Origin: Bryobacterales bacterium
GTDB taxonomy: Bacteria > Acidobacteriota > Terriglobia > Bryobacterales > Bryobacteraceae
Reading direction: 5' to 3'
DNA: 33,032 nt
NCBI GenBank assembly: GCA_030693045.1
Contig: JAUYBU010000195.1
Span: 1 to 33,032 of the forward strand
Part shown: positions 3,025-14,695 of the stretch, piece after piece
Layout of the letters: each line of letters starts with the position of its first letter
How positions within the stretch are numbered: the stretch's first letter is position 1
Notes under the pieces: generated by a model
The model's database searches: none
The model's input: the letters and a program-made list of their open reading frames with translations, nothing else
What the model was told of the DNA's origin: nothing
Position numbers and translations under genes: made by a program

Positions 3025-3357
3025 ATGGATCGAGAACTGGCAATCCGGGAAACGATCCGCCGCCTGGTGGGTTACTTTCGGCCGGAGCAAATCTATCTCT
3101 TCGGGTCCACCGCTCGAGGAGAGGCTGGCCCAGACAGCGATCTGGACTTCCTCGTGGTGCTGTCGGACGACGCTCCGCGAGCATTGCTGCTATCCGGCAG
3201 AGAATATGAGCATCTCATCGGCATACCTGTCGCCGCGGACATTGTGCCGATGCGACGAAGCACGTTCGAGGTCCGGAAGCACTGGCTGATGTCGATTCCG
3301 GCGCTCGCCATCCGAGAGGGGCAACTGGTCTATGATGCCAATCCCAAGGCGGCGTGA
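3025..3357 (+). CDS. MNT-type minimal nucleotidyltransferase (MntA-like antitoxin)
   Basis: A 110-aa protein of the minimal nucleotidyltransferase family (Pol-beta fold). The signature is clear: YLFGSTARGEAGPDSDLDF gives G27-S28-x10-D39-x-D41, the nucleotide-binding GS and two metal-binding aspartates. In MNT-HEPN toxin-antitoxin modules such proteins neutralise the HEPN RNase by AMPylating it. The length is normal for the family and the frame is intact. The ATG has no good Shine-Dalgarno sequence; TACAAT at 3005-3010 could be a -10 box giving a very short leader. The 3' end overlaps the first codons of the broken HEPN partner, the usual operon arrangement. With HEPN lost it is an orphan, and whether it still acts is unknown. 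Confidence 0.85.
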   Translation: MDRELAIRETIRRLVGYFRPEQIYLFGSTARGEAGPDSDLDFLVVLSDDAPRALLLSGREYEHLIGIPVAADIVPMRRSTFEVRKHWLMSIPALAIREGQLVYDANPKAA

Positions 3358-3561
3358 AGAAGCCGAGGAGTGGCTGAGATACGCGACCGAAGATCTGGAA
3401 ACCGCGGAAATCCTGCTGGCTCCCCGGCCTCCCCCAAGCCAAAACAGGCTCTTTTCCACGCGCAGCAGGCCATCGAAAAGGCTCTCAAGGCGTTTCTGGT
3501 TTTCCACGACAGCCCTTATGCAGCCGGTGATTGCAGTGCGCCTCTAGAACGGCTATCATGA
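3332..3561 (+). pseudogene. Frameshifted and truncated HEPN-domain toxin partner
   Basis: The first 25 or so codons (frame of the ATG at 3332/3335) read EEAEEWLRYATEDLETAEIL, a typical HEPN first helix. The recognisable continuation KQALFHAQQAIEKALKAFL lies in the next frame, from about 3420 on, so there is a +1/-2 type shift near 3415-3440 within a C-rich stretch. The second part ends at a stop at 3561, before the final helices that carry the catalytic R-x4-6-H motif. The gene therefore has two lesions, a frameshift and a 3' truncation, and cannot encode an active HEPN RNase. The following antitoxin gene begins within or just after its end, so the truncation probably came with insertion of that TA pair. 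A sequencing error could explain the frameshift but not the missing C-terminus. Confidence 0.75.
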
Positions 3562-3572
3562 GGTCAAAGAGT

Positions 3573-3752
3573 ATGATCGACCTCAAACTGGAAACGCTGG
3601 TCTCGAAGGAAATTGAGGTAGATACCGAGACTCTGGCCGCCATTGATAATGGCACAAGAGCCGCCGATGAAGGTCGGACGGTTCCCCTCGACGAAGTCCG
3701 CAAGATGATCCCGAAGTGGATTTCAGAATTCGAATCTCAGAACCGGCGTTAG
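3573..3752 (+). CDS. Small antitoxin paired with ParE/RelE toxin
   Basis: A roughly 59-aa acidic protein (MIDLKLETLVSKEIEVD...) that resembles small antitoxins found next to ParE-like toxins. It contains the segment DEGRTVPLDEVRKMIPKWI, a pattern I recognise from antitoxins of this type. The N-terminal strand plus helices would suit DNA binding, but I cannot assign it firmly to RHH, Phd or RelB. Two in-frame ATGs exist, at 3558 and 3573. I chose 3573 because the protein then starts at the conserved-looking MIDLK; GAGG lies about 10 nt upstream. The 3' end overlaps the toxin start by 37 nt, which implies translational coupling, antitoxin first. It probably represses its own promoter with the toxin. 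Confidence 0.75.
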   Translation: MIDLKLETLVSKEIEVDTETLAAIDNGTRAADEGRTVPLDEVRKMIPKWISEFESQNRR

Positions 3753-4000
3753 CGGATCTCGAGCAGATCATCGAGTACTCCTGGGCTAACTTCCCGGCCA
3801 GCGCGGAACGATTTGCATCTGCAATTCTCAATCACGTGGAGTTGCTGGGAAGGTTTCCTTACATCGGAAGCCCCATTTCCGGACGTCCCCACGTCCGCCA
3901 ATTGGTCCACACACCGATTCTGATTTACTATCGGATCCATGAACGGCGCAAGGTCGTCGAAATTCTTCACTTCTGGCACGGCCAACGGCGTCCTGCTTAG
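3716..4000 (+). CDS. ParE/RelE-family toxin
   Basis: A 94-aa protein of the ParE/RelE superfamily, which poison either DNA gyrase (ParE) or translating mRNA (RelE). The family pattern is visible: ISEPALADLEQIIEYSWANF as helix 1, then FPYIGSPISGRPHVRQLVH and the C-terminal strands ILIYYRIHERRKVVEILHFWHGQRRP. The YYR...VEILHFWHG ending is the classic C-terminal core. It starts at a GTG inside the antitoxin gene. The order antitoxin-toxin and the overlap are standard for type II modules. The sequence favours ParE over RelE but does not settle it. It converges with the large minus-strand run, whose last stop is 68 nt away. Confidence 0.88.
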   Translation: MDFRIRISEPALADLEQIIEYSWANFPASAERFASAILNHVELLGRFPYIGSPISGRPHVRQLVHTPILIYYRIHERRKVVEILHFWHGQRRPA

Positions 4001-4067: not shown

Positions 4068-5834
4068 TCACTGGTTTACCAGCACGTCGCGGAGGCGCTG
4101 CCGGTTGGGTCCCGATTGGTCGGCGGCGTCGATGAAGTGTTTCATCGCGCCGGATAGCGGCGTTTGGGCCGGCATGCGGAAGATCCAGGGGATGTTGGCG
4201 CTGGTCAAGGTGCGGTCGTCGGCCAGCGCGAGCACCGGAAGGTAAAATTTGTTGGCCAACTGCAAGGCCAGATGGGCCGCCTTGCGTTCGGTCGCGATCA
4301 CACCCAGCGTGCGCTGGTCCTGGAGCAGCCGGACCAGTTCGTTGACCGCCTTCCCCCAGGGGACGTCGGAATCCACGCCCACCACGCGAAAGCGCGCCGG
4401 GACGTTCAGGGCGTTCGCCAGTCTGTCGGCGCCCGGGCCAAAGACCGCGATCACCGCCGGGCCGGCGGGAAGGTCGGCCAGCGCCGGGCCGGTGTAACTC
4501 ACGCCGTTCTCGCCCACCCGCGCGTAGGGTTTCTCCATCGGGTACAGGCGAAATTGCGCTTTGCCGCCCTCGATGGTCCCGAGATACATGGGGGCGACGT
4601 TCTTCGCGTTCGGATCGAAGACCATCTGCCCGGTCACACCCTTGTAGCGCTCCACCCCGGTCAGCGCGTCGCGGATTCGGCCCCGGTTCAATCCCGCGCG
4701 GCAGACAGCGTCCAATAGGACCTTCATGGCGTCGTAAGCCAGCGAGGAGAACGCCTCCGGCGACGCCGTGAATCGGCCCTGGAAGCGTTGCTTGAAGCCG
4801 GAATCCAGGCGCGCGGGGTCGTAGGGGAACACCACCTCCAGCCCGTCCGCCGCCGGCCCCGCATTCCGGAACAGCGCGTCGCCGAACACGCGGAAACTCC
4901 CGAAGACGCGCTGCTTCATTCCCATCGCGCGCAGTTGTTTCAGGATCGCTCCCGCCGGCCCCGCGTCGCCCCACAGCACGATCGCGTCGGCGCGCGAGTC
5001 GTTGATCACCCGAAGCTGCCGCTCGAAATCGGTATCCCCGGGCATGTATTTCTGTTCGATCACCACGGGGCGGCCGAGGCGGCGCGAAGCATCGCGAAAC
5101 TTGATCACGCCGAACCGGCCATACCGGTCGTTCACCCGGAGCAGCGCCACCCGCTTCAAACCCAAATCCGTGTAAATGCGCCGCGCCAGCGTGTAGCACT
5201 GCACGCGGTCGTCTTGTAGCACCGTCAGATACCACGGAATGATGGTTTCCGGAATGGTCGGATCGGTGGCCGCGCTGTTGACTATCGGCACTTCCGTCTT
5301 GAGCGTCACGCGAAGAGCGATGTGAGTCGAGTCGCCACTGATAGATCCCAGCATGGCCCAGACCTTGTCGTCGTAAGTCATCTTCACGATTTCATTGCTC
5401 GCCGCGCCCCAAATCGCCTGATCGTTGTGGACCATCAGACGGAACGGCTTCCCGCAGTAACCTCCGGCGGCGTTCGCCTCCTCGATGGCTAGCATCGCGC
5501 CGTTCAGCATCATTTTCCCGAGCGCTTCGTCCGGATGGTCTTCTATCGGCCCAAGAAAGCCGATGCGGACTTCGTCGACCCCGGCGAGCGCCGGTTCGGG
5601 GACGTCGCGCGCCGCGCCGTTGTACTCCACCAGCTTGGTGTAGTGCTGAAAATAGGGTTTCGTGAACTTCGAAAATGGCCGCAGGTCCTCCGGCGTCCCC
5701 GCATACGGATCCATCACGCGCGGCGCCGGCGGACCCGGCGGCTGGCTTCCGCAGGAACAAGGCACGGCGGTCTGCGCCGCCAGCGCGCCAGCCAATGCGA
5801 ACGAAAAACAGAGATACCGGCTTAGTCGTGACAT
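4068..5834 (-). CDS. Exported ABC-type (LivK-like) periplasmic binding protein with extra C-terminal half-domain
   Basis: A 588-aa exported protein. MSRLSRYLCFSFALAGALAA is a signal peptide and a proline-rich linker follows. From about residue 88 the type I periplasmic-binding-protein fold of branched-chain amino-acid receptors is clear: VRIGFLGPIEDHPDEA, GAMLAIEEANAAGGYCGKPF, AMLGSISGDSTH, VPIVNSAATDPTIPE, RVALLRVNDRYGRFG and LSSLAYDAMKVLLDAV-like helices. It is about 200 residues longer than typical LivK. The tail (about 490-570) repeats features of the N-lobe, e.g. TLGVIATERKAAHLALQLAN and IPWIFRMPAQTPLSG. The ORF track runs 82 codons further upstream, but ATG 5834 follows the upstream stop by 2 nt and begins the signal peptide. 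No ABC permease or ATPase is nearby, so it may be a sensor or scavenging receptor and not an importer subunit. The ligand is unknown. Confidence 0.85.
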   Translation of the reverse strand: MSRLSRYLCFSFALAGALAAQTAVPCSCGSQPPGPPAPRVMDPYAGTPEDLRPFSKFTKPYFQHYTKLVEYNGAARDVPEPALAGVDEVRIGFLGPIEDHPDEALGKMMLNGAMLAIEEANAAGGYCGKPFRLMVHNDQAIWGAASNEIVKMTYDDKVWAMLGSISGDSTHIALRVTLKTEVPIVNSAATDPTIPETIIPWYLTVLQDDRVQCYTLARRIYTDLGLKRVALLRVNDRYGRFGVIKFRDASRRLGRPVVIEQKYMPGDTDFERQLRVINDSRADAIVLWGDAGPAGAILKQLRAMGMKQRVFGSFRVFGDALFRNAGPAADGLEVVFPYDPARLDSGFKQRFQGRFTASPEAFSSLAYDAMKVLLDAVCRAGLNRGRIRDALTGVERYKGVTGQMVFDPNAKNVAPMYLGTIEGGKAQFRLYPMEKPYARVGENGVSYTGPALADLPAGPAVIAVFGPGADRLANALNVPARFRVVGVDSDVPWGKAVNELVRLLQDQRTLGVIATERKAAHLALQLANKFYLPVLALADDRTLTSANIPWIFRMPAQTPLSGAMKHFIDAADQSGPNRQRLRDVLVNQ

Positions 5835-5836
5835 TG

Positions 5837-6898
5837 TCACTCCGCCTTCACCGCGATCCCGTGGCTCAAGCCCTTGGCCGTCGCCACCCAGATGTCGTCG
5901 CCCTGAAAATCGACGCCGTACACGTAATGGTGGGCCGGCGCGCTTGGAACATCGATTCGCGTGACGCTCCCCGCCTGGTCGCGAATCAGCATCTCCGGCC
6001 GGCCGGTCTCCAGCGACGGCCGGTACACCGACCAGTTCCTGCCGTCGAAGTAAGCCAGACCCTTGTCGGTCGAGAACCACGCTCGGTTACCATCCACCGC
6101 TTTCACCTGGTTGAGGAAGTTACTCGGCAAACCGCTGTCTTGATCCAGAAAGTTACGCCAGTTACGTCCATCGTAGCGGCTGGCGCCGAAGTAAGTCGCC
6201 ACCCAGACGATCTTATCCTTCTCTACATAACTCACCGACGTAGTGATCTCGTGAATCAGTCCCTGGTCCTTGAACAGTACAATCTCGGTTTCACCGTCGG
6301 GATCGTTGTAGTCTTTCCATCGATCGTTCTTGACGTCGTACTCTAGCACGCCGCCGCCCCAGACGGCATAGTAGACCTTGTCCTTTCCGGGACTCACCGC
6401 ATACGTCCAGATCTCGTACATCGGCGTGTTCCGCTCGTTATAGAGCGTCCACTGGCCGGTGCGCGTATTAAGCCGGCTGGCCCCGGCCGCGGTCGCCGTC
6501 CATACCTCATCGTCCTGGACCGCCACGCCATAAACCACGTCATTACTCAGTCCGCTGTTAAGTTGAGTGTAAGTGTCGAAGCGCCCCGCCGAGTACCGGC
6601 TCAAGCCACCCATGGTGGCGATCCACACGTCGCGAGTCCTCTTGTCCACCGCCACATACAGCACGGCGCGGTGCGCCAGTCCGTCCTGGGGCCGGAATAC
6701 CTTCCACTTACCTTTCTCGTACAGTGCGAGACCGTTGTCGGTGCCCGCCCAAACCCGCTCGCCATCCACCGCCACCGAGAAGACTTTGTTGTCCGGCAGC
6801 CCGTCCGCCGTCGTGAAATTCTGCCAGCGGAATCGTGGCATGGGCGGGGCCGCCGCCCAGAGCGACGAAACAATCAGGAGCGCAAGCGCGTGTCTCAT
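5837..6898 (-). CDS. Exported Reg_prop (two-component-type) beta-propeller protein
   Basis: A 353-aa protein with signal peptide MRHALALLIVSSLWAAAP and a run of Reg_prop repeats: FTTADGLPDNKVFSVAVDG, VWAGTDNGLALYEKGKWKVF, VWIATMGGLSRYSAGRFDTY, VWTATAAGASRLN, IVWVATYFGASRYDGRNWRNF, AWFSTDKGLAYFDGRNWSVY and IWVATAKGLSHGIA. Such repeats form the periplasmic sensor propellers of hybrid histidine kinases. Here the propeller stands alone, with no membrane, kinase or GGDEF part, and about one propeller's worth of blades. Its ATG overlaps the upstream stop (ATGA) and its stop is 2 nt before the binding-protein ATG, so it is cotranslated with both neighbours. It may be an interaction scaffold or sensor for the adjacent exported proteins; this is inference. 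Confidence 0.85.
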   Translation of the reverse strand: MRHALALLIVSSLWAAAPPMPRFRWQNFTTADGLPDNKVFSVAVDGERVWAGTDNGLALYEKGKWKVFRPQDGLAHRAVLYVAVDKRTRDVWIATMGGLSRYSAGRFDTYTQLNSGLSNDVVYGVAVQDDEVWTATAAGASRLNTRTGQWTLYNERNTPMYEIWTYAVSPGKDKVYYAVWGGGVLEYDVKNDRWKDYNDPDGETEIVLFKDQGLIHEITTSVSYVEKDKIVWVATYFGASRYDGRNWRNFLDQDSGLPSNFLNQVKAVDGNRAWFSTDKGLAYFDGRNWSVYRPSLETGRPEMLIRDQAGSVTRIDVPSAPAHHYVYGVDFQGDDIWVATAKGLSHGIAVKAE

Positions 6899-8751
6899 AG
6901 CGTCTTCAGATACTCAATCAGATCGTTTAGTTCGTCCTTAGTCAGATCGTTACTCACTCCGTGCCGGTCGGTCGGATTGAATACCGTCCAAATCTCTTCC
7001 AGGCTCTGAGCCGATCCGTCGTGCAAGTAGGGCGCCGACAGGAAGATGTTAGTCAACTGCGGCACGTCGAACAAAGGCGAACGGTCGGTTGGTTTGCCGG
7101 TCCCCACATCGGTCAACTGCCGGTTGGTGTAGTCCGGGCCCGAGTGACACACCGGGCACTGCGACGCTTCCGGGATCGGCGTTCCGTCCTTCCGCCGGGT
7201 GCGCTCGTAGATCGCCTTGCCGCGTTCCTGGGCGGCGGTCGGTTCGCCGTCGGCGCGGCGAAACCGGTTGGGACGCCGGGGAATCGACTTCAGGAAACTG
7301 ACCAGGTCCGCCAGTTGCTCCGGCGAGTAACTCTGAGAACGGAAGAAGTATTTCTCGGTCCGCGGTCCGCACTCCGTCTCCAAATCCGGATTTGCTCCAT
7401 TCCACTTAAACGGCCCCGTATTGGACACGTCCTCAATCAGCCGGTTGTCCACGACGTCGATGCCGAACCCGTCCGGTTCCAGATCCCATGCCAGTCCGTC
7501 GAGTGTGCCCTCGATGTGACAACTCGCGCAGCCGAACTGACCCTGGAACGAGAAGCGGGCGGTGTGAAACAGCCGTTCTCCGCGCCGCTCCGGAGTCACA
7601 CCAGCCGGCCCGCCAAGAAGAATGGTCCGCGCCACCTTCCGCGCGCCGGTGTCGATCACCGACACCGTGTCGTCCAGGCGATTGGCCACAAACAGCCGCG
7701 CGCCGTCCGAGGAAAGCGCGATTCCCTTGGGATTGCTTCCCACCGCAATGCGCGCCGCGACGAACTTCACCGACGCCGACAAGTCGTTGGCCAGCCGCGC
7801 GCGCTCCCTGGCGCCGGAGCGGCGCAGTATGCTCAGCAACTTGTCGAGGTCCAGCACAGTGACGCTGTCCGAACCGCTGGTGGAAACATAGGCCGCGCGC
7901 TTGTCCGGCGCGATGGCCACTCCGAAGGGCAGCGAGAAGTAGCGTTCGACCTCGTCGATCAGCACTTGTACGCTATCCCCCACGTCCGGGCCGAACAGCG
8001 TGAGAGAGTTTCCAATCACAAAGCCGTGCGCGACGTGCGCCAGCGGGATCAGGTTCTTGGGGCGCAGTTGGGACGCGATGCCCAGCCGCCCGTCGGCGGA
8101 AATCGCCGCGTGAAAGACGCCGGCGACGTTGTGCATCCGCCACCGGTCGGTCACCGCCTGCCGCCCGGTGTCGATCACCGTGATCTCGGACTGCGGCGGC
8201 GTCCGGTGCGGGCCCGGATTGGGATAGATATGCGTACCGTAAATGAACCGGCCGTCGGGCGAACCAACCAGATAGCTCGCGCCCCGGCCCGCCGCCAGGC
8301 GCTTTGGCTCGCCGCCGCTGGCGAGGTCGATGACCGAGATGTTGCCGCCGATCCGGTTGGCCGCGTACAGGGTCTTGCCTTCCCGGTCAACCAACACGCT
8401 GGTCGGCTCGAAACCCGAGTGCAGCGTCCTGGTCACAGCGAGTGTTTGGGCGTCGATCTCCGTAACCGTGTCGCTCCACGAGTTCGCCACATACACGAAC
8501 TTCGCATCCGGGCTCAGAGCCAGCCCTTTCGGCGTTCGTCCCACCGGCACGCGCCGCAGCACCTTGCCGGACTTGACGTCCACCACCGCCAGTTCGTCGG
8601 AGCCTTCGCAGACCACGTACAGCCGCTCGCCGCCGGGCGACAACGCAAGTTCGATCGGACTCAGATAGCGCTCGGCGCCGGCGCCCGCGAGCAACCACGC
8701 GAACGCGGCCACCGCGGCCGTCACGGCAGCGAACGTGAGAGCCCTTCGCAC
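6895..8751 (-). CDS. YVTN beta-propeller fused to two-CxxCH cytochrome c peroxidase-like domain
   Basis: A 618-aa exported protein. After a signal anchor (ALTFAAVTAAVAAFAWLLAG) come YVTN/40-residue propeller repeats over about 30-390: LALSPGGERLYVVCEGSDEL, VGRTPKGLALSPDAKFVYVA, VGSNPKGIALSSDGARLFVA. The C-terminal third is a MauG/bacterial cytochrome c peroxidase-type domain with two haem c motifs, CASCH (408-412) and CPVCH (532-536), and the family signature APYLHDGSAQSLEEI. Such proteins carry out periplasmic electron transfer, peroxide reduction or protein modification; the substrate here is unknown. The start is GTG at 8751, one nucleotide after the upstream TAG, with GAGGAGAAG inside the end of the upstream gene as ribosome site. 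The stop overlaps the next ATG. Covalent haem attachment would need a cytochrome c maturation system elsewhere in the genome. Confidence 0.9.
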   Translation of the reverse strand: MRRALTFAAVTAAVAAFAWLLAGAGAERYLSPIELALSPGGERLYVVCEGSDELAVVDVKSGKVLRRVPVGRTPKGLALSPDAKFVYVANSWSDTVTEIDAQTLAVTRTLHSGFEPTSVLVDREGKTLYAANRIGGNISVIDLASGGEPKRLAAGRGASYLVGSPDGRFIYGTHIYPNPGPHRTPPQSEITVIDTGRQAVTDRWRMHNVAGVFHAAISADGRLGIASQLRPKNLIPLAHVAHGFVIGNSLTLFGPDVGDSVQVLIDEVERYFSLPFGVAIAPDKRAAYVSTSGSDSVTVLDLDKLLSILRRSGARERARLANDLSASVKFVAARIAVGSNPKGIALSSDGARLFVANRLDDTVSVIDTGARKVARTILLGGPAGVTPERRGERLFHTARFSFQGQFGCASCHIEGTLDGLAWDLEPDGFGIDVVDNRLIEDVSNTGPFKWNGANPDLETECGPRTEKYFFRSQSYSPEQLADLVSFLKSIPRRPNRFRRADGEPTAAQERGKAIYERTRRKDGTPIPEASQCPVCHSGPDYTNRQLTDVGTGKPTDRSPLFDVPQLTNIFLSAPYLHDGSAQSLEEIWTVFNPTDRHGVSNDLTKDELNDLIEYLKTL

Positions 8752-8752
8752 G

Positions 8753-10363
8753 CTACTTCTCCTCGATCGTTACCGCGCGATCCGCCGCCACATCGTTCAG
8801 CGTTTGGACAATTCCGCTGGGCCAGGTGATGGTGAGCCGCTCGGCCTTCGCCGCCGCGCCCAACCCGAAGTGTACGCGGCCGTCGTCCTGCCCGAGGTAG
8901 CCCGATCCGGCGACCCGCTCCGCTTGTTGCTTGCGTCCTCCGGCAGTCACTTCGACCCTGGCGCCGATTCCGTCCCGGTTGCTCTTCTTTCCAATCAGCC
9001 GCACCAACAGCCAATGACTTCCGGCTGGCGAAACGTTGTGGAACAGCGTCCCCGCGCTCCCCAGATTCACCAGAAAGAAGTCGATCCGGCCATCGTTGTC
9101 GTAGTCGGCCGCGCACGCGCCGCGCCCCACCGTCTTGGCGTCGAAGACCTCGCCGGCGCTCGATGAGACATCGGCGAACTTGCCCTCTCCCAAGTTGCGA
9201 AACAGCGAGTGCTCCTGCGGAACCATGTGGATCAGCCCGCCGTGCGCGATGAAGATGTCGCGCAGTCCGTCGTTGTCCAGGTCCTGCACCGCCGTGCCCC
9301 AACTCACGTATTGAGCGGTCAACTGCGAGATGCCAGCGCCCTCGGTCGCGTCTTTGAATTTCGCCGGCCCCACGTTTTTCAACAGGCGGTTGTATTTCGA
9401 ATCGCTCACCCACAGGTCCACGCGGCCGTCGTTGTCGAAATCCGCGAACACCGGTCCCATGGCCGAGGTCGATTCCCCGCTTTGCCCGTAGGCCACGCCG
9501 GCGGCAACGGCAATCTCCTTGAACGTTCCGTTGCGCTGGTTGTGAAACAGAAAGTTCTCGGTCTTGTCGTTGGCCACGTAGATGTCCGGGTAGCCGTCGC
9601 CGTCGAAGTCGCCGGCGGTGGCCCCCATGGTGCGCCCCACGTAGCCGGCGATCCCGGACTTCTCGCTCACGTCGGTGAACGTTCCGTTGCAGTTGTTGCG
9701 AAACAGCAAATTGATTTCGCCCGCGTAATCCAGCGGACCGGGATAGTTGTCGGCGGCGTAGTAGGCGCGATACTTGGGATCGAACTTCACGTACCTGCCC
9801 ACAAACAGATCCACGCACCCATCGCGATCGGTATCCAGCCAGGCCGATCCAATCGACCAGCCGGGCGCTTTCAGGCCGGCTTTCGCGGTGACGTCCTCGA
9901 ACGTCCCATCGCCCTTGTTGCGAAACAGAATGGCGCGCTCGTAGCCCGTGACGAACAGGTCCACAAACCCGTCGTTGTCGTAATCGGCGGCAATCGCCGC
10001 CATGCCGAACACGTCGGCGCCGACTCCCGCCTGGGCGGTTACGTCGGTGAACTTGCCGCCGCCGTCATTCCGGTACAGGCGATTGCGCGGCGTCTCCGCG
10101 GGCGGCTTGCGCAGCGGGAAAGGATGCATGACCGCCGCCAGCGGCTTGCCCGTGACCACGTAGAGGTCCTGACGCCCGTCGTTATTAAAATCGAACCACG
10201 CGCATCCGGCGCCCGTACTCTCGAGAAGCGAACCGAGTTTCTGCGCGCCGAAACTGTGAGTGAACTTGATACCGGACGCGGAGGTCGAGTCCTCGAAGCG
10301 GATCGGAGCTTCGCCGGCCGCCAGCGCGGCGGCGAGGACAAGTTGAAGCAAGCCGCTCATCAT
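8753..10363 (-). CDS. Exported FG-GAP/VCBS repeat protein with ASPIC/UnbV C-terminus (CRTAC1-like)
   Basis: A 536-aa protein with short signal peptide MMSGLLQLVLAAALAAGEAP. Many calcium-binding-type FG-GAP/VCBS blades follow: FDFNNDGRQDLYVV, ADYDNDGFVDLFVTGYE, LDTDRDGCVDLFVG, GDFDGDGYPDIYVANDK, ADFDNDGRVDLWVSDSK, QDLDNDGLRDIFIAHGG, ADYDNDGRIDFFLVN. The last ~80 residues are the ASPIC/UnbV domain (GIGARVEVTAGGRKQ, RVHFGLGAAAKAERLTITWP). The fold is an integrin-like propeller, probably extracellular or periplasmic; its biochemical role in bacteria is not settled. Two tandem ATGs (10363/10360) overlap the previous stop as ATGATGA. The strong site GGAGGGAGAG lies just upstream, partly within the previous gene. 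Complete and in frame. Confidence 0.92.
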   Translation of the reverse strand: MMSGLLQLVLAAALAAGEAPIRFEDSTSASGIKFTHSFGAQKLGSLLESTGAGCAWFDFNNDGRQDLYVVTGKPLAAVMHPFPLRKPPAETPRNRLYRNDGGGKFTDVTAQAGVGADVFGMAAIAADYDNDGFVDLFVTGYERAILFRNKGDGTFEDVTAKAGLKAPGWSIGSAWLDTDRDGCVDLFVGRYVKFDPKYRAYYAADNYPGPLDYAGEINLLFRNNCNGTFTDVSEKSGIAGYVGRTMGATAGDFDGDGYPDIYVANDKTENFLFHNQRNGTFKEIAVAAGVAYGQSGESTSAMGPVFADFDNDGRVDLWVSDSKYNRLLKNVGPAKFKDATEGAGISQLTAQYVSWGTAVQDLDNDGLRDIFIAHGGLIHMVPQEHSLFRNLGEGKFADVSSSAGEVFDAKTVGRGACAADYDNDGRIDFFLVNLGSAGTLFHNVSPAGSHWLLVRLIGKKSNRDGIGARVEVTAGGRKQQAERVAGSGYLGQDDGRVHFGLGAAAKAERLTITWPSGIVQTLNDVAADRAVTIEEK

Positions 10364-11244
10364 CTCTCTCCCTCCGGCGCCGGAATCTCGGCCGGAACCG
10401 TCGAGCGAAGCAGCGCCATCGGAACCACGTTCTCCGGCGCCCGCTCGGGCCCGGCGTGGCAGCCCACGCACACGCGTTGCTCGCCGCGCCGCATCCAGAA
10501 CCAGCCCTTCTCGCCCGCCAGGACGCGGCCCCCGCGATCCGCAAGTTCGATCCGGATGGGCCGCTCCGACGGAACGTGCAGGTAGAACGAACCGTCGCTC
10601 TCGACCTTCGCCTGCCCCAGCCGAATCGTTCGCCCTTCCGCGTTCAGCGAGTAGATTCGCACCGCGGCGATCGCGCCTTCGGCAAACGAAATCGGCGACT
10701 CGTACGCGTTCAGGCACAGCACTCTCGCCCCGGGCCAGCCGTGCAACCCCGACGGGTGGCTCAACGGCGTTCCACGAGCGGTGTCAGCGTGGCGCAGCGC
10801 GGCCTCGACACCGCTGCCGTCGCTGTAGACGGTGTACAAGCCGGCGGGGCCCTCGAACAGAATCCGGCCGTCGCCGAGCACCTGGCGCGGCAGATAGTTT
10901 CCGGGGGCGTAGGTCAAGCGCAGCGGTTCCCCGCCCGACAAGGGCATGCTTTCCATCTGGAAAGCGCCCGCGCGTTTGCGCGCATAGACCAGCATGTCGT
11001 CGGGCAGATACAGCGGACGAACGCAGTCTTCATCGAACTTCGTGATCCGCCGCGGCGCACCGCCCGCGCGCGATGTCTCCCATATCTGCCACGGGTCCCC
11101 CTGCCGTTGCTTGCCCGCGAACAGCACGCGCCGCCCGTCGAAGGAAACCTGGGAGTTGGCGGTGGCAAAGAACTCCGGCGACAACGGCCGCTGGCCGTTC
11201 AGCATGAGGACCGCGCAGGTCAAAGCAAGAGATAGACCCTTCAC
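10360..11244 (-). CDS. Exported PD40 (TolB-like) propeller protein with a single C-terminal CxxCH
   Basis: A 294-aa protein. I start it at GTG 11244 (VKGLSLALTCAVLMLNGQRP), which gives a signal peptide; the longer ORF in the track is read-through from the upstream gene. Propeller-like PD40 segments follow: ANSQVSFDGRRVLFAGKQ, IWETSRAGGAPRRITKFDED, GGEPLRLTYAPGNYLPRQV. Then comes a carboxypeptidase-regulatory-like strand region (KVESDGSFYLHVPSERPIRI). Near the end is CVGCHAGPERAPEN, a CxxCH haem c motif at residues 259-263. This layout resembles PD40-plus-CxxCH proteins with a single haem-binding tail. The protein is shorter than many relatives, with perhaps four or five blades. No clear Shine-Dalgarno sequence precedes the GTG, which lies 11 nt after the upstream stop. 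The stop overlaps the next gene's start. Confidence 0.8.
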   Translation of the reverse strand: MKGLSLALTCAVLMLNGQRPLSPEFFATANSQVSFDGRRVLFAGKQRQGDPWQIWETSRAGGAPRRITKFDEDCVRPLYLPDDMLVYARKRAGAFQMESMPLSGGEPLRLTYAPGNYLPRQVLGDGRILFEGPAGLYTVYSDGSGVEAALRHADTARGTPLSHPSGLHGWPGARVLCLNAYESPISFAEGAIAAVRIYSLNAEGRTIRLGQAKVESDGSFYLHVPSERPIRIELADRGGRVLAGEKGWFWMRRGEQRVCVGCHAGPERAPENVVPMALLRSTVPAEIPAPEGER

Positions 11245-11255
11245 CGTTTGCTGAA

Positions 11256-14200
11256 TTATAACCCGGTGGTGGCCCGCCGGGTATTGTATGCGCGCCGCCA
11301 CTCCCGGCGCCGGGCGTCGTTCGGGAACCTCTCGTCCCCCCGGTACGGATAGCCGCTCATGTTGTGGAACGGCAGCGGCTCGACGCTCGCGCCGAACGCC
11401 GTATTCGCGTCCGAGTCCTTCGACCATCCGTCAACGAACAGCAGGAAGTCCCGCGTCCAGCCTTTCGCCAGCGGCGGCATCGCGCGGGCGTCGAACAGCA
11501 GCCGCAACTCGTCGCCGGAGCCCGTGATCACCATGCGGTCGTCAACCGATTCCACCAGCTCCCGCACGTCGCCGTAGCGCGTGTACAACCCCGGCGTCGG
11601 ATTCCAAATCGAGGTTGCGCTGACATGCGCGTAGTCGAAGACCTCGGGCTGGTTGCTCGCCCGATCGATCACCAGCTTCGAGAAACCGCGAAAGCGCAGG
11701 TCCGCTTGCGCCGCGCCGACCGGCGTCAGGCGCGCCGCGGGCGTCGCCGAAGATTCGATCAGGAAAATCTCATCCCAATACACGCACAAACTGGTGACAA
11801 TCCGGATCTCGCGCGACGCCGAAAGGAATTTTCCGGCCAGGTCCGCCACCATCGTCTTGGGCTTGCCCGCGGGCATTCCCAGGTCTTCGATCACCGTGCG
11901 CCAGGCGCCGCGCGCGTCCTTCACCTGCAAATACGGCAGCCTCAGCCCGCCGCCGGCTTCCTGCGAGGCGCCCAGGAAAGCGCTGCCGTCCGCCCAATCC
12001 ACCCAGCCGCCGAGCACCAGGGCGGCGCGGTTGCCGGCCGCCGCGGCGGGACCGAAGTCGAGGTCCAGATGGTGCATTTCCGCTACGCCGGCGGCGTTGC
12101 GCCGGAAGTCGTCCGGATACCGCCGGTCCTTCCTCAGGACGCGATCGAGCACATCGTGGCCGTGATGGTCGGTTGCGCGCACGGGATGAATCCGCCGCTC
12201 GGCGCCGAACAGCCGGAATTCCGGAAATGGCGGCGACTTGAACTTTTCGTTGGTGAAGATCTCGGTTCCCGACGGATGATCCAGCGCCACCAGTTGCACC
12301 TGGTCGAGATAGGAAACCTCGTGCAGTTCCTCGGTGATCCGCACTTCGAATCGCCCGTTGCGCTCGGCCAGGGCCCCGCGCGGAATCTCCACGTACTCAT
12401 CGTGGTCCAGCGCGAAGACCGCGCCGTCGCCCGAACTGGCGCCCAGCGGCGCGACGCCCAGCACGTCGGTGATGAATTGAAATTCCCTCCCGTTCCACGT
12501 GAACACCATGGGGCACGAACCGGACATCCGCGGCGCTTCCTTAGCCCGCAACACCTTCCCCGCGGCCACTCCGGTTTCGTTCTGGATCATGCCGTTCGGC
12601 CAGGTGATGCGCACCGTGTCCGCCTCGCGGTACGCTCCCAGTCCGAACAGCAGCGGAAGCCCGTCGTACGGTTTCTTCTGATACGCCGCGCCGGCCTTCA
12701 CCTCGACTTCGGCGCCTTGCGCCAGTACCCGGTTCTTCACCCCCGCGAGCGAAACCTTGAGCCACCCATTGCGAGTCGCCGTCCGATTCAGCAGCAGGTG
12801 CAGACTGCCGTCGCTCGCCACTCCCGCCAGGTCGATCTTGCCATCGTCATTGAAATCCGCCGCGACCCACACGGCCCCTTTTCTGATTCCGGGATCGGCC
12901 GCGCCGCGATTCTCAAGATCCGCGAACACCGGCGCACCGGAACCCGCGAGGGCCATCGCAGCGGTCTCGAACCTGCCCTTGCGATTCAACAGCAGTCCCG
13001 CACCGCCGGGTCCGGAGAACGCCAGGTCCATCCAACCATCGTTGTTGGCGTCGGACACGGTCAACGCGTGTGATCGCGCCGGCAAGCCATCCAATAGCGT
13101 GGCCTCGAAGCGCCCGCGCAAGTGGTCGCGATACAGCACCCCGGCGCGATCCCGGTAAGCCACCGCGACATCCATCGATTTCTCGTCGGACATCGCGCAC
13201 AGCGCCACGGCGTCTGTCGCCTCTCCGCCGGCGAACTGAAAATCCGCGCTGCGCTCGACGAATCCGTTGGTCCCCTGGTTGCGCAGCAGCGCGGAGCTCG
13301 AGCCAAACAGCAGCAGGTCCAGATCGTAGTCGTGGTCGTAGTCGATCCACACGGCTTTGCGGAAGCGCCCCGCCGGCAGACTCGCCGCCTCTTTTCGATA
13401 CCGCCCTTTCACATTCCGGTACAGCGCCGGCCCGGACTCGGCGATCACGCACAGGTCCGCCAGGCCGTCGTTATCGAAGTCGCCCGCCGCGACCGAGACT
13501 ACTGACCGAAGCTCCTCCAGCCCCGTCGTCCGAACCGGCTCCAGGCCGTTCCTGTAGATCCGCACGCCGGCCTTGGACCAGACCAGAAGGTCGGGCCTGA
13601 GATCCCCGTCGATGTCCGTCACCAGTGCGCCGGCGGTCGCCGGGTCCAGGTTGCCCTCGAGCTTTCGATCCTGGAACCGCGCCCTCGCCGGCGGTTCCTT
13701 CGAGGCGCGGGCAAGCTCGATCGGATCGTAGATCTCCGAGTAGGTGTTCCACTCCATGTCCTCGGAGTCGTCCGCTTCTTTCTGCCTGCTCTTGGCCTCC
13801 TGGAATGCGGCCAGCGCCGCCCCGGCGCGCTCCTCCCGCTCGCCCAGCCGATAGGCGTTGTAGATCTGGAAGTAGGGAGCCACCAGGATCGGATTCAAGC
13901 GGTTTGCGAGTTGAAACTGTTGCAGCGCCAGGTCCGGCTTGCCATCGAGTTGGTGCAGCAGGCCCAGGTTGTAGCGGGAAACGGCGTCGTCCGGGACCAG
14001 TTGCGCGAACCGCTCCAGTTGCCGCACGGCTTCCGGATAGCGGCCCTGCTTCTTGTACTGTATGCCCAGGTTGAACCAGGTGTGCGGAAACCTGGGATCC
14101 AATTGCTGAACCCGCTCCAGCTCCGCAATGCCTTCGCCGGCTTTCCCGGCTCTCAGCAGCGCCAGGCCATAGTTCAAGCGGTCCGGAATCGAAACCGGCG

Positions 14201-14387
14201 CGATGTCGAGCGCCTTGCGAAACTCCTCCACCGCCGCCGCCGCCCCGGTGGGGTTTTCATAGAAAGCTTTTCCGAGGTTGCGATGCCGTTGCAGCCGGTC
14301 CCGCGCGAGCTGCGCCTCGTCGGCGCCGCTCAAGATGAGCATCGCCGCCACCACCATAAAACCGGGGACGGAGTACTCTTTCCCCAT
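11256..14387 (-). CDS. TPR + FG-GAP/VCBS + ASPIC/UnbV large exported protein
   Basis: About 1043 aa, the first gene of the six-gene run. The N-terminal ~200 residues are TPR repeats (LDIAPVSIPDRLNYGLALLR, PHTWFNLGIQYKKQGRYPEA, AVSRYNLGLLHQLDGKPDLA). The middle holds FG-GAP/VCBS blades (VTDIDGDLRPDLLVWSK, GDFDNDGLADLCVIAE, SDANNDGWMDLAFSG, ADFNDDGKIDLAGVAS), then an UnbV-like segment (ADTVRITWPNGMIQNETG). The C-terminal ~450 residues start at CPMVFTWNGREFQFITDVLG; I have seen this region in similar proteins but cannot name it. The start is uncertain. ATG 14387 has a weak GGAAAG upstream; ATG 14414 and 14357 are alternatives. Codons 1-10 (MGKEYSVPGF) lie in a piece of the nearby palindromic repeat, so 14357 (MVVAAMLILSG) may be the ancestral start. 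Probably exported. Confidence 0.85.
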   Translation of the reverse strand: MGKEYSVPGFMVVAAMLILSGADEAQLARDRLQRHRNLGKAFYENPTGAAAAVEEFRKALDIAPVSIPDRLNYGLALLRAGKAGEGIAELERVQQLDPRFPHTWFNLGIQYKKQGRYPEAVRQLERFAQLVPDDAVSRYNLGLLHQLDGKPDLALQQFQLANRLNPILVAPYFQIYNAYRLGEREERAGAALAAFQEAKSRQKEADDSEDMEWNTYSEIYDPIELARASKEPPARARFQDRKLEGNLDPATAGALVTDIDGDLRPDLLVWSKAGVRIYRNGLEPVRTTGLEELRSVVSVAAGDFDNDGLADLCVIAESGPALYRNVKGRYRKEAASLPAGRFRKAVWIDYDHDYDLDLLLFGSSSALLRNQGTNGFVERSADFQFAGGEATDAVALCAMSDEKSMDVAVAYRDRAGVLYRDHLRGRFEATLLDGLPARSHALTVSDANNDGWMDLAFSGPGGAGLLLNRKGRFETAAMALAGSGAPVFADLENRGAADPGIRKGAVWVAADFNDDGKIDLAGVASDGSLHLLLNRTATRNGWLKVSLAGVKNRVLAQGAEVEVKAGAAYQKKPYDGLPLLFGLGAYREADTVRITWPNGMIQNETGVAAGKVLRAKEAPRMSGSCPMVFTWNGREFQFITDVLGVAPLGASSGDGAVFALDHDEYVEIPRGALAERNGRFEVRITEELHEVSYLDQVQLVALDHPSGTEIFTNEKFKSPPFPEFRLFGAERRIHPVRATDHHGHDVLDRVLRKDRRYPDDFRRNAAGVAEMHHLDLDFGPAAAAGNRAALVLGGWVDWADGSAFLGASQEAGGGLRLPYLQVKDARGAWRTVIEDLGMPAGKPKTMVADLAGKFLSASREIRIVTSLCVYWDEIFLIESSATPAARLTPVGAAQADLRFRGFSKLVIDRASNQPEVFDYAHVSATSIWNPTPGLYTRYGDVRELVESVDDRMVITGSGDELRLLFDARAMPPLAKGWTRDFLLFVDGWSKDSDANTAFGASVEPLPFHNMSGYPYRGDERFPNDARRREWRRAYNTRRATTGL

Positions 14388-14391
14388 TTCT
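14359..14391. repeat. Short solo piece of the palindromic repeat, used as gene start
   Basis: On the minus strand this reads AAATGGGGAAAGAGTACTCC followed by GTCCCCGGTTTT. The first 20 bases match 14521-14540 of the large repeat with two differences, and its GAGTACTCCGTCCCCGGTTTT matches 14669-14689 exactly. It looks like the two outer ends of the element joined without the internal hairpin. It encodes the first ~10 residues of the TPR/UnbV protein, including a possible start codon. Confidence 0.7.
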
Positions 14392-14514
14392 TTCCAGCCA
14401 CTATGCGACTTCATGAGCGGCGCTGCGAACCTCGCCGGGCGTCCAAGCGCCTTGCGCGCGCATCCGGGAAGCCGGAAGCCAGCCCCCCCGCCGCAGCCAG
14501 CGGCGGCGACGGCA

Positions 14515-14695
14515 GGATGAAAATGGGGAATGAGTATTCCGAGCCAATTGCAAAATTCGCCGAACGACCGCTCCCTGACGGTCGCGGCTCAGTAACCCGT
14601 TGCGAATCAGTGGCGCGCTTCCGAGCCGCGGCCGTCAGGGAGCCGGGCGTGAATTTTGCAATTGGCTCGAGTACTCCGTCCCCGGTTTTGGACGA
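14515..14695. repeat. Large imperfect palindromic repeat element (nested hairpins)
   Basis: Two nested inverted repeats are visible. The outer arms 14540-14558 and 14651-14669 are a perfect 19-bp match (right arm GAATTTTGCAATTGGCTCG). The inner arms 14571-14590 and 14623-14642 match over 20 bp with one mismatch (left arm CTCCCTGACGGTCGCGGCTC). The loop is about 32 nt. Outside the arms lie partly matching ends (ATGGGGAATGAGTATTCC against GAGTACTCCGTCCCC). The element has no ORF of its own. In my recollection similar palindromes, giving spurious PDGRGSVTRCE-type peptides, are abundant in Solibacter-type genomes; that needs a search. It fills most of the gap between the divergent genes at 14387 and 14761. 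Confidence 0.8.

Follow-up and report, generated by a model that had tools for sequence, protein, structure and literature searches.

Hydrazine synthase (HZS) is the key enzyme of anaerobic ammonium oxidation (anammox) and, to our knowledge, had long been held to be without relatives. Here we describe relatives of this enzyme in a Bryobacterales bacterium of the Acidobacteriota, encoded in a six-gene operon (g1 to g6) on a stretch of 33,032 nucleotides (contig JAUYBU010000195.1 of assembly GCA_030693045.1; hereafter the window). The two haem proteins of the operon are relatives of HZS alpha (g2) and of HZS beta-gamma (g4), and the module to which they belong is real, widely conserved and partly published. 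We put at roughly 0.6 the probability that g2 to g6 belong together as a single conserved module whose products make up an exported haem c enzyme complex on the HZS plan. The computed basis for this reading is homology, the fold of an alpha relative, gene order, parallel divergence and the retention of haem ligands. Synthesis of hydrazine by the module is unlikely.

Two haem proteins related to hydrazine synthase

The relationship of g2 and g4 to HZS is established by matches to NCBIfam models, PDB structures and family profiles, and by an AlphaFold2 model. The g4 protein matches the NCBIfam model of the HZS beta-gamma fusion at 1.9e-63. It is colinear with the beta chain of PDB 5c2v at 1.1e-37 over 339 amino acids (residues 31-369), including the PKN(L/W).P insertion region, so that it has the seven-bladed beta propeller with its HZS-type insertion, and it matches the gamma chain at 8e-26. 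Pfam finds in it a YVTN/Lactonase propeller and CCP_MauG, with two CxxCH motifs.

The g2 protein matches the NCBIfam HZS alpha model at 2.9e-11, and a profile of its relatives matches the alpha chain (5c2v_A) at 5.7e-49. An AlphaFold2 model of a full-length relative (locus L023) was obtained with a predicted local distance difference test score (pLDDT) of 86. Its best structural match in the PDB is 5c2v alpha (E 1.6e-19, template modelling score 0.74-0.75 by query length), at a low sequence identity of about 18%. The combination that characterizes HZS alpha, a six-bladed propeller with a middle domain and the CxxCH of haem alphaI, is thus present at the level of the family, while the window protein is about 100 amino acids of propeller short.

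In overall plan, the family shares with the HZS of Kuenenia stuttgartiensis (PDB 5C2V) the alpha propeller with middle domain and haem I motif, the seven-bladed beta subunit and the dihaem gamma subunit, and the beta-gamma fusion seen in g4 also occurs in the HZS of Ca. Scalindua. An earlier note on this DNA, made from the sequence alone, knew of no named system with this gene set. That statement does not stand, both because g2 and g4 are recognizable HZS relatives and because clusters of alpha, CRTAC1 and beta-gamma genes have been published (PMC12758564).

Haem ligands retained and lost

The haem sites of the gamma domain are largely those of HZS. Among 89 beta-gamma proteins, the window protein included, Cys102, Cys105 and His106 of haem gammaI are invariant (89/89 each). 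The third link to this haem, Cys165, is kept in 81 of the 89 and is present in the window. His332, a ligand of haem gammaII (PMC12607021), is histidine in 88 of 89, again including the window. At position 144, the histidine of HZS gamma is replaced by tryptophan in all 89.

The alpha subunit has diverged further. Tyr591, the proximal ligand of haem alphaI, is lost: HZS has CSGCHYGSYRG where the window has CVGCHAGPERAPEN, and the relatives are likewise changed. Haem alphaII is absent, as the window-type protein ends shortly past its single CxxCH. An RC[DE]H motif found in 47 of 77 alpha proteins adjoins the column of the zinc ligand Cys303; its cysteine is not aligned there (histidine occupies the column in 51 of 77), and the window protein does not have this segment.

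A true hydrazine synthase in an unrecognized anammox-type acidobacterium would account for the homology that all three subunits show in sequence and fold, and for the retained gammaI and gammaII ligands. It is nevertheless extremely improbable. Tyr591, haem alphaII and gamma His144 are all missing, so that the proteins should not be filed as hydrazine synthase. In addition, their scores fall far below the NCBIfam HZS equivalog cut-offs (214.7 against 1250, 150 against 560, 100.4 against 625 and 42 against 800 bits), and the same identity has been rejected for this kind of cluster (PMC12758564). No match to PF13447 (HAO-type, multihaem) was found in the genome, and control genomes gave none either. 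On residues and scores together, this candidate was set aside.

The tryptophan at gamma 144 raises the main rival reading. Under it, the module is an oxidative dihaem enzyme of the type of MauG, MbnH and the bacterial dihaem cytochrome c peroxidases (bCcP), in which peroxide or oxygen serves to oxidize either a small molecule or a residue of a partner protein such as CRTAC1 or Reg_prop; the likeness to HZS would then reflect shared ancestry alone. The gamma domain shares the fold family and the inter-haem tryptophan of these enzymes, that residue has been tied to CCP/MauG activity (PMC12758564), and g4 gives secondary matches to MbnH and MauG models besides its CCP_MauG match in Pfam. However, g4-type proteins differ from MauG, MbnH and bCcP in traits that they have in common with HZS, namely the His332 ligand of a bis-His haem gammaII, the third haem cysteine and the fusion to an HZS-beta-like propeller. 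The colinearity of g4 with HZS beta and gamma over its whole length also speaks against this reading, and a cytochrome c554-type multihaem fusion in some relatives is suited to electron input. We therefore regard MauG-type oxidation as a possible but not a probable description of the module.

A conserved gene order

Conservation was assessed in 61 related genomes and in a scan of 84,980 species genomes. Together, 80 named loci and those from relatives gave 90 distinct loci; the scan retained the loci closest to the query and is therefore biased toward near relatives. The hosts belong to the Acidobacteriota, Planctomycetota and Verrucomicrobiota, with one Bacteroidales genome (Bacteroidota).

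The order alpha, CRTAC1, beta-gamma is kept in 66 of the 69 loci with sufficient upstream sequence. Downstream of beta-gamma, a Reg_prop gene comes next in 60 of 61 loci. A binding-protein gene lies downstream in 60 of the 61 as well, and 46 of them have a Rid-family gene there, giving the overall order alpha, CRTAC1, beta-gamma, Reg_prop, (Rid), binding protein. Pairwise distances of five of the families correlate at 0.92-0.96 (63 loci), as would be expected of co-inheritance, to which shared species history contributes. In G001, the sole other member of the genus that was examined, Reg_prop and the binding protein are fused in a single open reading frame; a proline-rich linker joins them, and there is no internal signal peptide. 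With the kept gene order and the parallel divergence of five families, this natural fusion, found in the nearest relative, speaks for a single functional unit. Variation around the core also occurs: one group of relatives has a cytochrome c554-type region with eight extra CxxCH motifs fused to beta-gamma, and two separate binding proteins.

The earlier note had proposed an extracytoplasmic complex that senses or oxidizes something, its ligand brought by the binding protein, and had named scattered genes in relatives as the result that would speak for incidental packing. Such scattering was not found, and the gene order excludes incidental packing. An exported redox complex with a binding protein gains support from order, parallel divergence and the g5-g6 fusion, whereas the inclusion of g1 does not (see below). 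A cluster for catabolism dependent on pyrroloquinoline quinone (PQQ) was also considered and rejected, as the YVTN propeller match is merely generic and the conserved set contains no PQQ dehydrogenase.

The operon in the window

The six genes lie on the minus strand and run in the order g1 to g6 from 14387 to 4068 (Table 1), coordinates that agree with the earlier description. All six reading frames are open, with no internal stops. The stop codon of g1 and the GTG start of g2 are 11 nucleotides apart, the g2/g3 and g4/g5 junctions are ATGA overlaps of 4 bp, and g3/g4 and g5/g6 are separated by 1 and 2 nucleotides, respectively. The tight packing reported for these genes, with overlaps of 4 bp and gaps of at most 11 nucleotides, is thus accurate, as is the count of four propeller classes and three haem c motifs (CxxCH). 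All six N-termini resemble signal peptides in a simple hydrophobicity test, which is crude and involves no trained predictor, in line with the export signals noted previously. The operon contains no ABC permease gene, and a promoter and terminator scan gave nothing exceeding shuffled sequences.

Table 1. Features of the operon and the adjoining repeat in the window
Feature	Position	Strand	Description
g1	11256..14387	-	TPR, FG-GAP and UnbV/ASPIC with a C-terminal beta-rich domain of ~420 amino acids; variable cluster member (Pfam)
g2	10360..11244	-	HZS-alpha-like: TolB/PD40-type propeller, HZS_alpha middle domain, one haem c motif (CVGCH)
g3	8753..10363	-	CRTAC1-like FG-GAP and UnbV propeller (Pfam); between alpha and beta-gamma in nearly all loci
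g4	6895..8751	-	HZS beta-gamma-like fusion: seven-bladed YVTN propeller and dihaem CCP/MauG-like domain (CASCH, CPVCH)
g5	5837..6898	-	Exported stand-alone Reg_prop propeller (Pfam)
g6	4068..5834	-	Type I Peripla_BP_6/LivJ-like binding protein with C-terminal extension
Repeat element	14358..14689		332 bp, resembling a miniature inverted-repeat transposable element, with 21-nt terminal inverted repeats; covers the g1 start

Just beyond the operon, small genes lie on the plus strand at 3025-4000 of the window. By eye they comprise an MNT-type nucleotidyltransferase with a broken HEPN-like partner, and a ParE/RelE-type toxin with its antitoxin.

The first gene, g1, had been counted as part of the unit, a view that the comparison does not bear out. 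It adjoins the core in only a few loci and lies about 2.5 kb upstream in many Acidobacteriaceae. Its C-terminal domain (window 11256-12515) gave a good structure model (pLDDT 81) with no significant match in the PDB, only weak partial matches of a carbohydrate-binding-like kind. Domains of this type recur with FG-GAP proteins in many loci. In G001 (L021:1-2880), the end of g1 runs into alpha in one open frame, and a palindromic insert lies where the two meet.

The binding protein and its ligand

The g6 protein belongs to the LivJ-type fold and family, matching Peripla_BP_6 at 5.1e-47 (Pfam) and PDB 4gnr at 1.6e-30; its C-terminal extension reads, by eye, like half of a second binding protein. 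In the alignment of binding proteins, a pocket tryptophan and a pocket arginine are invariant (63/63 each). The tyrosine and glutamate of amino-acid binders (the GYY and GE positions of 4gnr), which we take to be ligand-binding residues in the LivJ-type family, are not kept: aspartate or asparagine replaces the tyrosine, and a region with the invariant arginine replaces the glutamate. Because arginine and tryptophan take the place of the usual amino-acid-binding residues, the proteins probably share a single conserved ligand that is anionic and likely an organic acid.

These features are also compatible with an extracytoplasmic sensor, in which ligand detection falls to the binding protein and Reg_prop, and the haem proteins set or signal the redox state of that ligand. 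Hybrid two-component sensors are the best-known setting of Reg_prop domains, the binding protein is an orphan and is fused to Reg_prop in G001, and an FNR-type regulator gene adjoins the operon in L030. A sensor is nonetheless quite improbable, as the conserved genes include no histidine kinase, receiver or transmembrane output, and the eight extra haems of some relatives exceed what sensing would need.

Rid, DAHP synthase and other neighbours

Of 15 genomes that carry the operon, 14 have a Rid ortholog, against 6 of 46 others (Fisher p 2e-8, uncorrected for relatedness). In the window genome, the Rid copy lies unlinked on another contig, at 71% identity, and Rid copies at L120-L123 have no HZS-like neighbours. 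The single-domain Rid protein of the module shares the fold family of Rid hydrolases and does not have the Rid arginine (PAST against PARS).

A second, more distant HZS-like lineage of the same family was found on contigs C190 of the window genome (G000), C53/C55 of G001 and C298 of G021 (L124-L127). The window genome carries a beta-gamma gene of this lineage (L124), and its relatives carry alpha-beta-gamma pairs. In three of the four places the lineage adjoins Rid-family genes, and in two of these there is a two-domain protein. Its best matches are the FkbO/Hyg5 chorismatases, which belong to the same fold family as the Rid partner, below the NCBIfam cut-off (65.9 against 325 bits).

DAHP synthase genes occur near 37 of the 90 loci, in two positions and as two subfamilies (for example L030:12384-13295 and L115:13547-14485). 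One subfamily, 67-75% identical, lies inside some operons, and the other lies upstream in Acidobacteriaceae; the enzyme is only partly specific to the module. Given the co-inherited Rid, the recurrent DAHP synthase and the chorismatase-like neighbour of the second pair, our best current guess is a chorismate-derived or imine-type organic compound as substrate or product, a lead and not a demonstration.

Other genes recur at the edges of the operon. An FNR/CRP-type regulator gene lies upstream in L030 (4374-5075) and, by eye, also in L029. An amidase gene is found upstream in Acidobacteriaceae, in about 20 loci (for example L078:2257-3708). A GMC oxidoreductase lies near the downstream end in most of six loci (L101:16107-17813 and five others).

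State of the copy in this genome

The window copy carries signs of damage. The repeat element between the operon and its upstream region contains nested inverted repeats, and the genome holds 29 exact matches to its 21-nt end, GAGTACTCCGTCCCCGGTTTT (reversed control, 0). Position 14387, from which g1 is read, falls inside this element, which covers the start codon; in a relative (L040), an ordinary signal peptide stands at the start of g1. Compared with G001 and close relatives, the window alpha has lost ~100 residues in frame, and with them the RCDH motif and some of the propeller.

This copy may therefore be impaired, given the repeat over the g1 start, the shortened alpha and the unlinked Rid, and misassembly is possible since the assembly is fragmented (624 contigs). 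That the operon is decaying or misassembled here and has no function is nonetheless unlikely: its six frames are open, the gamma haem ligands are intact and beta-gamma is 77% identical to that of the closest relative. The relatives, moreover, carry a full-length alpha.

Relation to published clusters

Part of this module has been described before. HZS-like genes were reported, with the proposal of a broad HZS-like family acting on other substrates (PMC10732223). Another study described clusters of HZS homologues in which alpha lies upstream of a fused beta-gamma, with CRTAC1 between them in clades I and II and binding proteins downstream in clade III (PMC12758564, December 2025). It noted the missing Tyr591 and the tryptophan at gamma 144, and judged key residues to be lost. 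By its architecture, the window type appears to fit clade II of that study, with which it shares the order alpha, CRTAC1, beta-gamma, a beta-gamma free of extra haems and a short alpha with no alphaII. Cys165 is given there for clade I, and the window type has it also. In the main text of that paper we found no mention of the Reg_prop and Rid partners or of the regulators, and in the paper no mention of the DAHP-synthase partner, the pocket signature of the binding protein or the breadth of the module in Acidobacteriota. Among the eight best-ranked results of a literature search, no paper linked HZS with Rid or chorismate.

Proposed function and implications

In the enzyme complex that we favour, the alpha-like propeller and haem protein g2 and the fused beta-gamma protein g4 would assemble with the CRTAC1-type g3, the Reg_prop protein g5 and the binding protein g6. 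Electrons would follow the HZS route, entering through the bis-His haem gammaII and reaching the triply linked haem gammaI, and the alpha haem may handle a product or a second substrate. The binding protein would present or sense a single conserved ligand, probably an organic acid. The repeat insertion at g1, the shortened alpha and the unlinked Rid may weaken the module in this genome. The module differs from HZS in the residue changes described above, and in an alpha gene that lies upstream of beta-gamma among CRTAC1, Reg_prop and binding-protein genes.

Several observations weigh against this reading. Shared inheritance likewise produces conserved operons and correlated distances, so that a physical complex is not proven, and no biochemistry was found for any member of the module. 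Tryptophan at gamma 144 is the MauG/peroxidase residue and favours oxidative chemistry, and the window alpha, with part of its propeller gone, may leave this copy unable to work. As to the substrate, the p value for Rid co-occurrence ignores phylogeny, and the single-domain Rid protein resembles Rid hydrolases no less than chorismatases. The operons of the window and of most close relatives contain no DAHP synthase, and housekeeping copies of it occur in nearly every genome searched.

A wider conjecture, which we regard as a long shot, would make the HZS fold an older and widespread class of soil and sediment enzymes. The alpha haem would attach a reduced nitrogen species to an organic acid, chorismate-derived or other, that the binding protein supplies, or would detach it from this acid. 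The Rid and chorismatase-like partners would handle the reactive product, and anammox HZS would be a specialized offshoot that uses ammonia.

A module found across four phyla, with fixed partners and a fixed binding pocket, offers a concrete route to what the non-anammox relatives of HZS do. The function of these relatives bears directly on the origin of anammox chemistry.

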